Shown: piece by piece, positions 39,635-44,448 of the stretch | How positions within the stretch are numbered: the stretch's first letter is position 1 | Layout: each line of letters begins with the position of its first letter | Origin: an uncultured Sutterella sp. | Lineage (GTDB): Bacteria; Pseudomonadota; Gammaproteobacteria; Burkholderiales; Burkholderiaceae_F | DNA: 64,000 nt | Reading direction: 5' to 3' | Assembly: GCA_949282745.1 (NCBI GenBank) | Contig: CASDQM010000004.1 | Span: 1-64,000 of the forward strand | Translations under genes and position numbers: made by a program | The notes under the pieces: generated by a model | Told to the model about the DNA's origin: nothing | Database searches by the model: none | Seen by the model: only the letters and a program-made list of their open reading frames with translations

Positions 39635-41635
39635 TTAGTTCAGGTAGTCGCTCAGGCGCGCCTGGAAGTCGGGCGTGCGAAGCTTGCGGATCGCCTGCGT
39701 TTCGATCTGGCGCACGCGCTCGCGCGTGAGACCGAGAGCGCGGCCCACTTCTTCGAGCGTATGGTCGACGTTGCTGCCGATCCCGTAGCGAAGACGAAGC
39801 ACCTGGCTTTCGCGCGGGGTGAGTTCATCGAGCGACTTCTTCACCGATTCGATCATGGAGACGCCCTGGAAGCGGCGGCTCGGATCGTCCGTTTCGTCGC
39901 CTCGCACGAAGTCGAGCTTCGTCGCGTCTTCATCGTCCCCGATCGGCGCGTCGATCGATTCGACCGAACGCATCGCCTGCGTGAGGAGCTGCACCTTCTG
40001 CAGGGGAATGTCGTTGTCCTCGGCGATCTCGTGCTCGGTCGGCATGCGGCCGTTTTCCTGGAGGAAGCGCTGCTTGTAGCGGCGGATCTTGTTGTAGGAC
40101 TCGGTCATGTGCACCGGAATGCGGATCGTGGCGCCGAAGTCGGCCACGGCGCGCGTAACGGACTGACGCACCCACCAGGTCGCATAGGTCGAGAACTTGT
40201 AGCCGCGGCGGTATTCGAACTTGTCGACCGCCTTCATAAGGCCGATGTTCCCTTCCTGAATGAGGTCGGTCATCGCGAGGCCGCGGTTGACGTAGCCCTT
40301 GGCGATCGAAATCACGAGACGCAGGTTCGCCTCGATCATCTTGGCCTTGGCCTGGCTCAGGTTCGTCTGTGCAAGACGCACGGCGCGCGAGAGTTCGCGC
40401 TGCTCGCAGATGTTCATCATCGCGGCGGCGGCAAGGTCGCGCAGGACCGCCTGCTCTTCGCGAACGACCGGAAGCGCGCGCTCAAGCGCTTCGCTCCAGG
40501 GATGCCCCTCGGCGACGAGCGCCTCGAAGAAGCCCTCGACCGTGCAGTCCTTCGTGAGGTATTCGACGGCGTCCTTCTGCGGCACGTGGCACTGTTCGAC
40601 CATCACGGTGCGGATGCGCTTGAGCGATGCGTTCACCTTGGCCATGTGGGCGTCGATCGTGTCGGTGAGGTGCGTGACGCACTTCACGGAGAAGCGGATC
40701 GGGCTCAGGAGCTGAACGATCTTGGCGCGGCTCTTTTCGTACTTTGCGAAGCCTTCGGGATCGGCGTAGTGCTCTTCGAGCTTGGCGAGTTCCTTGGCGC
40801 AGCGCTTGAAGATCGAGATGGCGCGCTTACGCATTTCCTCGAGCTGTTCGCTCGTCATGGCCGCGGCCCCGATGTCGGTCGTCGATTCGTCCGACTCGGC
40901 GTCGACTTCGCCGTCGTTCGCATAGGTGTCGGTAAAGCCGTCCACCACGGCGTCGACGCTCGTCTCGCTGTCCTTGAGGACTTCGGCGTAATGAAGAAGC
41001 TCGCGCACGGCCATCGGGTACTGCAGAAGCGACGTCACGAGCTTGCCCGTGAACATTTCGATCGACTTGGCGACTTCGATTTCGCCCTGACGCGTCAGAA
41101 GCTTGTGGCTCCCCACGCCGCGCAGATAGGCGCGCAGGGGATCCTTCGAGAGCCCCGCCGACTCTTCGGGCGTAAGCATCATTTCGACTTCGTCTTCGTC
41201 GAGATCATCGCCGTCGTTGAGGCTGCCGTTGGCGACGAGGTCGTCCGAATCGGGCGGCGCGTCAAAGACCTGAATGCCGAAGCGCACGAGCCCTTCGGTC
41301 ACTTCCTGCAGATGCTCTTCGGTACGGAGGGCTTCTTCGGGGAGGTGGTCGTTGATTTCCTCGATCGTCACCCAGCCGCGGCTGCGGCCGAGACGAACGA
41401 GCGCGCCGTAGCCGTTGCCGGCGTCCTTCTTGCGGGCGCGGTGCACCACGGGGGCGCGGGGTTCTTCGGCTTCGCCGAGGTCCTCGTCGGAGTCGTCCGC
41501 ACGGGCTTCCCCGTCGGCCTCATCATCCTCCCAGTCGGACTGCGTCAACTCTTCCCCTTCGAGCCCCTCTTCCTCGAGCGTTTCCTCCTCGTCGAGGTCG
41601 ATGTCGGCATCAAAAGCGTCGTCACTCGTCTTCAT
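39635..41635 (-). CDS. Second RpoD-type sigma-70 factor
   Basis: A 666-residue primary-type sigma factor with an acidic N terminus (1-60), region 1.1 (about 75-100), region 1.2, a large acidic non-conserved insert and regions 2-4. Region 2 reads [36 protein letters not shown] and [16 protein letters not shown]. Region 4.2 is [18 protein letters not shown]. The -10 and -35 contact residues (RQxxT and RERxRQ) are kept, but [11 protein letters not shown] replaces the usual [11 protein letters not shown] and the region 3 linker differs. It follows a canonical rpoD by 389 bases and ends in a strong terminator. I start at ATG 41635. The division of labour between the two is unknown. Confidence 0.9.
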
Positions 41636-42024
41636 CAATCACTATCCTTTTGGTTCAAACGCGCCGAATGCGTTGCCGGGTTCGGGCGTTTGACGTGTTT
41701 TTTCAGCATGGCAACGTGGCACGCGCGAAAAAAGGCCTTCGGATCTCCGGTCCGCATCCGTCGGCCGCCCTGCGTGTCGTGAGATGGGCCGGGTCGACGG
41801 GGGACGCGCCGAAGGTCGGGCGTGCGGTCCGCAACGCTCTTTGCAGAGTGCAAAAATCCCCCCACCCCCGCTTTGCATAGCGGCGGCCGAGGTCGGGAGT
41901 TGCAGACGAAAAGGCGCATAGGATACTACGAAACCCAGGGCCTTTCAACTCAAAGGGCGCGGCGAATCTCTTCGCGCGCGCCCTCTGCGGCGGGATTTCG
42001 CCCCCTCTTCTCAGGGGGCCGGAA
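41636..42024. promoter_or_regulatory. 389-base region between the two rpoD genes
   Basis: No convincing gene. A CCCCCT/AGGGGG hairpin at 42001-42018 follows the upstream rpoD. The space is large enough to hold its own promoter for the second sigma gene, with a TATCCT or TAGTAT element near 41925-41932 on the minus strand. Long open frames here are shadows of GC-rich sequence. Confidence 0.4.
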
Positions 42025-44448
42025 TCACTCTTCCTTCTCGGTGTTTTCGACGAAGCTTCTCAACTTGTCGGCGCGGGAAGGATGGCGAAGTTTGCGAAGC
42101 GCCTTCGTCTCGATCTGACGGATGCGCTCGCGCGTGACGTCGAACTGCTTGCCGACTTCCTCGAGCGTGTGGTCCGACGGCATTTCAATGCCGAAGCGCA
42201 TGCGCAACACCTTCGCTTCGCGCGGCGACAGACTGTCGAGCACCTGACGGACGGTGTCCGAGAGGCTCGTGTTCTGCACGGCTTCCGAGGGCGCCACCGT
42301 CATGGTGTCCTCGAGGAAGTCGCCGAGATGCGAATCGTCGTCGTCCCCGATCGGCGTTTCCATCGAGATCGGTTCCTTGGCGATCTTCATGATCTTGAGG
42401 ATCTTGTCCTCGGGGAGCTGCATGATTTCGGCGAGTTGACGGCTGTCGGGCTCGACCCCGGTTTCCTGCAGCACCTGACGCGTGATGCGGTTCATGCGGT
42501 TGATCGTCTCGATCATGTGCACCGGAATGCGGATCGTGCGGGCCTGGTCCGCGATCGAACGCGTGATGGCCTGACGGATCCACCAGGTCGCGTAGGTCGA
42601 GAACTTGTAGCCGCGGCGGTATTCGAACTTGTCGACCGCCTTCATGAGGCCGACGTTCCCTTCCTGAATGAGGTCGAGGAACTGCAGACCGCGGTTCGTG
42701 TACTTCTTCGCGATCGAAATCACGAGGCGCAGGTTCGCCTCCGTCATTTCACGCTTGGCGGCGCGGGCCTTGGCTTCGCCCGTGGCCATCTGCTTGTAGG
42801 TCGTCAGAAGTTCCGGGATCGACATGTAAACGTCGCGCTCAAGATTTGCAAAGGCGCGCTGTTCCTCTTCGATCGTGGGACGGATGCGCTCGAGCGTCGC
42901 CGTCTTGTCGGGCATGCGGCGGATGACCTCGTCCATCCAGGTGAGGTCCGTCGCATGGTCGACGAATTCCTTGAGGAACCACTCGCGGTTGAGGCCGAGA
43001 CGGCGCACGAGCTCGTTGTAGATCGCCTTTTCGCGGTTGCGGATCCCGTCGACCGTCGTGCGAAGCGTCTCGCAGAGGCGGTCGGCCGTCTTCGCCGTGA
43101 AGCGAAGACCCATGAGTTCCTGCTGAATGGCGTCCTGATACTCGGCGAGCTTCGGGCTCTTGGGGCCGTTCGCGTTGAATTCCGTCTTGAGGGCCTCGAA
43201 GTGCGCTTCGACGCGCGAGAAGACTTCGAGACTCTTTTCGCGCAGTTCCGCGAGCTGTTGCGACGTCATGGCGGAGGCGCCCATGTCGGTTTCGTCTTCG
43301 TTGTGGCCGATGACGTTCGCTTCGTCGTCGGGCAAGACGATGCCGTCGATCACGTCGTCGATCGCGGTGGTACCCTCGCGGATGCCCTTGGCGAGTTCGA
43401 GCACGGTGCGGATCGTCACCGGGCAGCGCGCGATGGCGAGCACCATGTGCTTCAGACCGTCTTCGATGCGCTTGGAGATTTCGATTTCGCCTTCGCGCGA
43501 GAGAAGCTCGACCGAACCCATTTCACGCATGTAGATGCGAACGGGGTCCGTCGTGCGGCCGAATTCGCTGTCGACCGTCGAAAGGGCGGCTTCGGCTTCC
43601 TCTTCGACGTCGTCCTCGCTCACGACGGCGGCGTTCCCCTGCATGAGGAGCTCGTCCTCGTCGGGCGCACGTTCGTACACCTGAATGTTGAGGGTCGCCA
43701 TCATGCTCACGATCGATTCGATCGCGTCGTCGTCGATGAGGCCCGTCGGAATGTTGTCGTTGATTTCGGCGTAGGTGACGTAGCCGCGCTCCTTGCCCAT
43801 GCGGATGAGCTTGAAGAGCTTCGAGCGGCGGTCTTCGGTCGATTCCTCTTCCGAACCGTAGCCCTTGGCGAGCACGTCGCGCACGTTGCGGTCCTTGCCG
43901 TTCTTCGCCTTTCGGCCGCCCTTGCGGGCTTCGGGCTCGTCTTCGGGGAGTTCCGGAATGTCGGGAATGTCCTCGGCGAACTCTTCGTCGCCGTCGCCTT
44001 CGTCGACCACGTCGATGTAGGCGTCGTCGGAAGCGGCGTCAAAGTCGTCCTCGCCTTCGTCGTCATCGGACTTGGCTTTCTTCGCGCTCTTCTTGCCGCG
44101 CTTCTTCGGAGCGGTCTCGGCCTTGGCGGCCTTCTTCGCGCGCGTCTTGCGCGCGGGCTTCGCTTCCTTTTCCTCGGCTTCGGCGGGCGCCTCTTCGGAG
44201 GCGACCGCTTCCGCGGCGGGCGCTTCGGCCGCAGGGGCCTCGGCTTCGGCCGCCTTCTTCGTCTTGCGGCGGCGAGCGGGTTTGGCGGGTTCTTCGGGCG
44301 CCGATTCGATCGACAGGGTCAGCCCCGCCGTCTGTTCGATCGCCTGCGTCTCGGCCTTCGTGCGACGAGCGCGCTTTTTGGGCGCCTTCGTTTCGTTTTC
44401 GGTCGCAGCCGCCTGCACGGAGTCTTTTTCGGACTTCTTCGATGCCAT
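42025..44448 (-). CDS. rpoD: RNA polymerase sigma factor RpoD (sigma-70)
   Basis: An 807-residue primary sigma factor with canonical regions 2-4: [35 protein letters not shown] followed by [11 protein letters not shown], and [20 protein letters not shown]. Region 1.1 begins only near residue 208 ([20 protein letters not shown]). It is preceded by about 200 extra residues rich in Ala, Lys and Glu, with repeated [17 protein letters not shown] tracts and then a strongly acidic stretch. E. coli RpoD has 613 residues. I use ATG 44448, eight bases after AGGAAAGG, though ATG 44460 is possible. Being next to dnaG, this copy holds the ancestral position. Confidence 0.95.

Follow-up and report, generated by a model that had tools for sequence, protein, structure and literature searches.

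Why should a bacterium keep two full-length genes for its primary sigma factor side by side, and which of the two serves the cell? The question is raised by the first 64,000 nucleotides (nt) of contig CASDQM010000004.1 from an uncultured Sutterella sp. (hereafter the window), where two genes for RpoD-type sigma factors, here called rpoD1 and rpoD2, follow dnaG. Few bacterial proteins are as conserved and as essential as RpoD. A sequence-only reading of the window had suggested that the two copies divide labour between growth states. Having compared the locus with its counterparts in the 67 supplied genomes of the family, which consists of Sutterella-like bacteria, we think it likely that rpoD2 arose long ago by tandem duplication of the primary sigma gene and has turned into a second housekeeping sigma, competent to take over from the first.

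Both proteins of the window scored above the cut-off for all six Sigma70 Pfam domains (1.1, 1.2, the non-essential region, 2, 3 and 4), which bears out the earlier description of two complete primary-type sigma genes. The genes lie on the minus strand in the order yqeY-like gene, dnaG, rpoD1 and, after 389 nt, rpoD2, in agreement with the tandem placement reported before. We take the names dnaG (primase; also used in the sequence-only reading) and yqeY/GatB-like to be correct. The copy next to dnaG is canonical, as claimed, with 824.7 bits against the cut-off of 555 of the RpoD equivalog model NF004208. RpoD2 retains WWV[RK]Q..TR in regions 2.3-2.4 and TRERVRQIE in region 4, so the residues contacting the -10 and -35 boxes are indeed kept. 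The replacement of QARTIRIP by FGATIRIP at the start of region 3 is real too, and in relatives it belongs to a clade signature that starts AD[FY]G[NA]TIR[IV] (with C in place of R in the G007 row). The two copies are 38% identical over 590 amino acids (aa), which rules out an assembly duplicate. Compared with the nearest relative, G060, the ratio of nonsynonymous to synonymous substitution rates (dN/dS) was 0.050 for rpoD2, 0.087 for rpoD1 and 0.094 for dnaG, indicating purifying selection on rpoD2. In the window genome (2.5 Mb, 92.5% complete) there were three matches to Sigma70_r2, namely rpoD1, rpoD2 and a 340-aa protein taken to be RpoH, together with one sigma-54 and no RpoS above cut-off.

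All 67 genomes were searched with RpoD1 and RpoD2 separately. The RpoD2 type was present in 36 of them, comprising every genome of four genera: the window's own (g1, 12/12), g2 (9/9), g4 (10/10) and g15 (5/5), with RpoD2 of G055, G006 and G012 counted from pieces cut at contig ends. The nine full-length RpoD-like sigmas of g4 are 57-62% identical to RpoD2 of the window, i.e., they are its orthologues. In the remaining genera RpoD1 alone was present, except for some drafts in which no full RpoD was matched. RpoD1 was found in all 12 genomes of g1, all 5 of g15 and 7 of the 9 of g2, and in none of the 10 of g4; 12 of the 36 RpoD2 carriers thus yielded no RpoD1, those of g2 being G007 and G008. 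Seven of these 12 genomes are at least 93% complete, with G011 and G018 at 100%. Searching 399 genomes of the order with the RpoD2 signature gave 7 matches (E 1e-38), all in g1, g2 or g4, and among 369 genomes of the class the window's own genome alone was recovered (E 1e-34).

The order dnaG, rpoD1, rpoD2 recurs in g1, g15 and g2. No rpoD1 stood between dnaG and rpoD2 in any of the eight g4 loci contained on one contig, nor in G008 of g2, and tblastn with three RpoD1 proteins detected no remnant of the gene in these nine loci (best E 0.077). The gap between dnaG and rpoD2 measured 377-620 nt in five of the g4 loci and held 1.9-2.9 kb of other sequence in three. In those three (L087, L091 and L092), open frames occupy the usual place of rpoD1. 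G007, which is 93% complete, is also without RpoD1, and its contig has no dnaG. Since no canonical RpoD was found in g4 and in two of the nine g2 genomes, RpoD2 must be capable of housekeeping there. What the genomes establish, at the level of sequence, is one RpoD2 clade in four genera, inherited vertically under strong constraint, and the absence of RpoD1 from its usual place at the locus in g4 and G008.

If g4 does rely on RpoD2 alone, the promoters of that genus indicate what it reads. We took the best two-box sigma-70 score within 120 nt before first tRNA genes; for G007, G008, G016, G018 and G019 the regions came from those 30 tRNA matches, out of 225, that scored best, and for the other genomes from the tRNAs in ∼400 kb each. 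The RpoD2-only genomes gave z values of 6.7 (G011, 9 regions), 6.3 (G018, 7), 8.3 (G019, 5), 5.0 (G016, 6), 3.0 (G008, 4) and 5.2 (G007, 4), compared with 7.0 in G054 (9 regions), which has both sigmas, and 7.2 in G063 (10), which has RpoD1 only. When GC-matched windows of the same sequences served as controls, their mean reached the observed one in 0 of 2000 draws for each of five groups. TTGACA-N17-CATAAT and TTGCCA-N17-TATAGT are examples from RpoD2-only genomes. Ordinary tRNA promoters in six such genomes mean that the promoters read by RpoD2 are most likely of the usual kind, and they argue strongly that its holoenzyme would recognize TTGACA/TATAAT sites and could alone run housekeeping transcription.

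RpoD2 has the domain content of a group 1 sigma. All six domains were also present in three scanned orthologues from RpoD2-only genomes, so these proteins and RpoD2 of the window combine regions 1.1, 1.2, 2, 3 and 4 with the proteobacterial insert, and by genome content RpoD2 is the sole RpoD-like sigma found in 10/10 genomes of g4 and 2/9 of g2. With RpoD (sigma-70, group 1; NF004208) it thus shares regions 1.1, 1.2, 2, 3 and 4, the large insert, the position after dnaG and the readers of the -10 and -35 boxes; it has diverged in region 1.2, where region 3 starts and in the linker/finger. The NF004208 cut-off of 555 was missed by RpoD2 of the window (544.7) and of G011 (543.6) and passed by those of G018 (563.2) and G008 (564), and the RpoD_Cterm model TIGR02393 (cut-off 354) was missed by the window (306.5), G018 (311.3) and G008 (311.9). 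Standard RpoD models therefore miss or nearly miss RpoD2, and the only RpoD-like sigma found in G011 scores below the RpoD equivalog cut-off. RpoS, another sigma with sigma-70-like promoter readout, is not known to carry region 1.1 or the large insert, both of which RpoD2 has. Assignment of RpoD2 as RpoS (TIGR02394, 265.8 bits against 378.7), RpoH (TIGR02392, 129 against 323.1) or the defence-associated sigma MzaA (NF041931, 353.7 against 800) was rejected, each score lying under its cut-off. Our claim, based on these comparisons, is that RpoD2 would work like a primary sigma, which is less than full equivalence with RpoD.

The selective pressure on the two copies is not the same in every genus. 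We compared identities over regions 2-4 in the same species pairs, dropping near-identical pairs and pairs with DnaG identity above 90%. RpoD1 was the better conserved copy in g1 (0.948 versus 0.850, higher in 20/20 pairs), the copies were equal in g15 (0.968 each, RpoD1 higher in 6/8 pairs), and RpoD2 was the better conserved one in g2 (0.976 versus 0.881 for RpoD1, which was higher in 0/9 pairs). Constraint is thus tighter on RpoD1 in g1 and on RpoD2 in g2. Such a swap agrees with the primary role in g2 having passed to RpoD2 before two genomes of that genus lost RpoD1, a change that would be complete in g4. The six full-length RpoD1 proteins of g2 are 44-46% identical to RpoD1 of the window, against 55-61% for most full-length RpoD proteins elsewhere. 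These drifted proteins (L080-L084) still had all six domains in the two that were scanned, as if RpoD1 were becoming an alternative sigma before its loss.

A tree of RpoB plus RpoC from 20 genomes gave ((g5,g13),((g16,g17),(g2,(g15,(g1,g4))))), with genus-level branches supported at 97-100. The RpoD set consisted of 60 rows longer than 600 aa, from 40 loci and the window; outside it stayed rpoD2 of G006 and rpoD1 of G004 (short or cut), L104 (frame split), G012, G055 and G057. Six g2 RpoD1 rows were included in a shorter-core tree and in one later fuller tree and were absent from two other fuller trees; the two later fuller trees covered 20 genomes and three gammaproteobacterial outgroups. In the fuller trees, RpoD2 followed the order (g2,(g15,(g1,g4))) of the RpoB plus RpoC tree. 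The g1+g4 group was weak in them, with a Shimodaira-Hasegawa-like approximate likelihood ratio test (SH-aLRT) value of 88 in one and bootstrap/SH-aLRT values of 87/61 and 86/72 in the others, and RpoD2 of g2 did not always form one clade (two fuller trees were run without the six g2 RpoD1 rows). The shorter-core tree, for which nine genomes were thinned, left the genus order open. RpoD2 and the family RpoD proteins grouped against the three outgroups with 100/100. The matching order implies that the common ancestor most likely had RpoD2 already and handed it down; it most likely arose once and passed vertically through the four genera, and rpoD1 was most likely lost on the g4 branch and again, separately, within g2. 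Tandem position and distribution favour, without proving, a duplication in place over an older split or a transfer. The RpoD phylogeny, which had been proposed earlier as a check, thus returned one old, inherited RpoD2 clade and left its exact sister unsettled.

Several observations weigh against this reconstruction. The absence of rpoD1 is partly read from drafts, since five of the 12 genomes are less than 90% complete and some outgroup drafts, e.g., G025-G027, are also without a full RpoD match; because a gap in a draft is enough to look like a loss, the case is built on the intact loci. The stem of RpoD2 is very long, the long branches of RpoD2 and g2 RpoD1 meet, and in the tree without g2 RpoD1 the approximately unbiased (AU) test did not reject the family RpoD1 proteins as one clade without RpoD2 (p-AU 0.056). 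The promoter evidence comes from tRNA genes only, 35 regions in six RpoD2-only genomes, several of them orthologous, and in five of these genomes from the 30 best of the tRNA matches. No good site preceded several tRNA genes, e.g., those for Met (G008, G018 and G019), Trp (G018) and Ile (G016). A blind search for words and spacings upstream of crudely predicted genes gave no clear promoter signal in three genomes; it was blank in the RpoD1-only genome as well and thus lacked power.

How rpoD2 is expressed beside rpoD1 is suggested by a predicted promoter, TTGAAA-N17-TATCCT, in the interval between the two genes of the window. It was the only sigma-70-like site in a 5.5-kb scan (0.5 in shuffles) and beat 200 shuffles of the rpoD1-rpoD2 gap (p ∼0.005). 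The form TTGAAA-N17-TANNCT, followed by a C/T tract, was present in this interval in all 10 genomes examined of the 12 in g1, and the rest of the interval appeared unalike by eye. The motif had no occurrence in 400 kb of G054 away from the locus (0.0 expected) and none in the G011 stretch, and G063 had two (1.5 expected). The conserved block makes it very likely that rpoD2 in g1 has its own transcript, with a leader of ∼280 nt, and this is compatible with separate regulation of the gene. No promoter site above shuffles was found at 5 g15 and 6 g2 rpoD1-rpoD2 loci. Directly after the -10 box, at 41895-41919 on the minus strand, the window has a tract like CCCTTTTTCGCC that recurs in the genus (L066-L074). 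With a run of T among the bases transcribed first, rpoD2 could be subject to polymerase slippage or to nucleotide-dependent control.

The changes in the protein point to steps of initiation rather than to promoter choice. From region 1.2 on, 51 columns differ in near-fixed fashion (at least 93% on each side) between 22 RpoD1 rows and 32 RpoD2 rows, with g2 RpoD1 left out. With the E. coli reference sequence, its numbering and the roles of its residues as we assume them to be, they include V98L, M102L, E104G, M105V, V108H and E109K in region 1.2; A447G, I457T, T459S and I460Y at the start of region 3; and P504V, I505E, S517A and G520L in the linker/finger. Residues past the region 4 helix, one of the places where activators make contact, also differ. 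Discriminator contact, the life of the open complex, escape and activation are set by these four parts of sigma, and RpoD2 would therefore alter initiation kinetics at unchanged promoters. Changes at P504, where RpoD2 has V, would act as suppressors in guanosine tetraphosphate-null (ppGpp0) cells; a literature search for P504L turned up no paper. We hypothesize that RpoD2 may be linked to the stringent response; DksA scored over cut-off in 63/67 genomes of the family, among them all 12 with RpoD2 only. In the core enzyme, the beta-prime clamp helices showed no change specific to the RpoD2-bearing genera. RpoB and RpoC have six fixed differences each between these genera (16 rows) and the outgroup, which comprises only 4 rows, including G to S just past the clamp helices of beta-prime. 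In beta, LLRAIFGEK has become LLRVIFGEK in 16/16 rows of RpoD2-bearing genera and 0/4 outgroup rows (L197-L212), at a site that we take to be near the flap holding sigma region 4. These differences hint faintly at a possible co-adaptation of core polymerase to RpoD2.

We accordingly picture the following course. The primary sigma gene would have been duplicated in tandem in the common ancestor of the four genera. In the window's genus, RpoD1 would have stayed the main sigma, and RpoD2, made from its own promoter, would compete with it for core enzyme and promoters alike. Since RpoD2 has conserved readers of the -10 and -35 boxes but a changed region 1.2 on the discriminator side, region 3 start and 3.2 linker/finger, it would mainly affect open-complex formation, promoter escape and the response to activators, and not the choice of promoter sequence. 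We lean, if cautiously, towards a broader reading, in which the canonical RpoD was displaced at least twice independently within one family by a newcomer that keeps promoter reading and changes kinetics and regulatory logic. The genera would then form a graded series, from one copy, through two with the old one more guarded and two with the constraint swapped, to the new copy only, and the changed parts (region 1.2, region 3 start, linker/finger and activator face) would give a different start-up at unchanged promoters.

That RpoD2 is instead a stationary-phase or stress sigma of the window's genus, standing in for an absent RpoS, is possible, and we hold it to be the less likely account. RpoS is under cut-off in all RpoD2-bearing genera, rpoD2 has its conserved promoter in g1, and RpoD2 is the less constrained copy there. 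However, RpoS is over cut-off in just 2/67 genomes of the family and is just as absent from genera that have no RpoD2, e.g., g16 and g17; RpoD2 falls well short of the RpoS model and has the region 1.1 and large insert foreign to RpoS; and g4 is served by RpoD2 alone. The sequence-only reading was thus right that a primary sigma was duplicated, and both genes prove to be constrained, but growth states cannot be the whole story where RpoD2 is the sole RpoD-like sigma found (g4 10/10, g2 2/9). Labour could be divided only in genomes that have the two copies; the growth-state form of this idea is unproven and too small for two lineages.

An origin by horizontal transfer to a place beside rpoD, or from an older paralogue, would account for the very long stem and for the AU result, and appears improbable given the joint grouping with family RpoD against the outgroups, the confinement of signature matches in order and class to this family, and the tandem position. 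We consider it equally doubtful, if not slightly more so, that RpoD2 has a promoter specificity of its own to which the g4 promoters have shifted: the 51 near-fixed differences that begin in region 1.2 and extend to the end of the protein and those after the region 4 helix would suit such a change, but the tRNA promoters of RpoD2-only genomes resemble those of the RpoD1-only genome and both recognition motifs are retained. A redundant, decaying copy or an assembly artefact is scarcely credible. The single point in its favour is the lower NCBIfam scores of RpoD2, and the low dN/dS, the presence in 36 genomes of four genera and the divergence of the two copies contradict it, including the degenerate second gene that had been named as an outcome fatal to the earlier proposal. 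We thus retain the ancient, takeover-competent duplicate as the explanation of rpoD2.

Two known systems come closest, the alternative primary sigmas of Burkholderia (PMC2194791) and the RpoD2 of Cupriavidus (PMC9045368), and the accessible parts of these reports describe no RpoD loss in either. SigI and SigJ of the Burkholderia cepacia complex are betaproteobacterial RpoD-like paralogues with all RpoD domains, suggested there as replacements when RpoD expression is inhibited (PMC2194791). In B. cenocepacia J2315 they sit beside RpoD, with no loss of RpoD described in the accessible text (PMC2194791), and we liken them to our RpoD2 by description; the order and class searches gave matches to the RpoD2 signature in the present family alone. 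Cupriavidus metallidurans has RpoD1 and a paralogue RpoD2 whose function is given as open in what we could access of that study (PMC9045368); the same text has it keep RpoD1 plus RpoN, RpoS, RpoH, FliA and 11 extracytoplasmic function (ECF) factors (PMC9045368), and this likeness, too, is by description. A search of the open-access literature on Sutterella and Parasutterella sigma factors and in general, with subscription journals and preprints outside it, gave no report of such a takeover among the papers listed. A lineage with such a takeover, by a paralogue with ∼50 near-fixed differences, would make it possible to study which parts of sigma-70 can be altered, how a regulator with very many targets comes to be exchanged and whether the kinetics of a sigma can evolve at fixed promoters.

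Table 1. Features of the dnaG-rpoD locus in the window
Feature	Position	Strand	Remark
rpoD2, divergent full-length RpoD-type sigma factor, 666 aa from ATG	39635..41635	minus	TTG one codon before ATG
rpoD1-rpoD2 intergenic region, 389 nt, with presumed 5' leader of rpoD2	41636..42024	minus	
Predicted rpoD2 promoter TTGAAA-N17-TATCCT, then C/T-rich tract	41920..41948	minus	ends 284 nt before start codon
rpoD1, canonical RpoD, 807 aa	42025..44448	minus	824.7 bits with NF004208 (cut-off 555)
dnaG (primase), start set at internal ATG of frame 44661-47033	44661..46976	minus	synteny anchor
yqeY/GatB-like gene, upstream of dnaG	47151..47600	minus	synteny anchor

One further observation concerns a genus outside the four. 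The single-contig genome G031 (g7) contains, at G031:C1:1014407-1132880, fragments in odd frames that are 76-92% identical to regions 2-3 of RpoD1 of the window, and the same ∼118-kb stretch also holds RpoC-like fragments.

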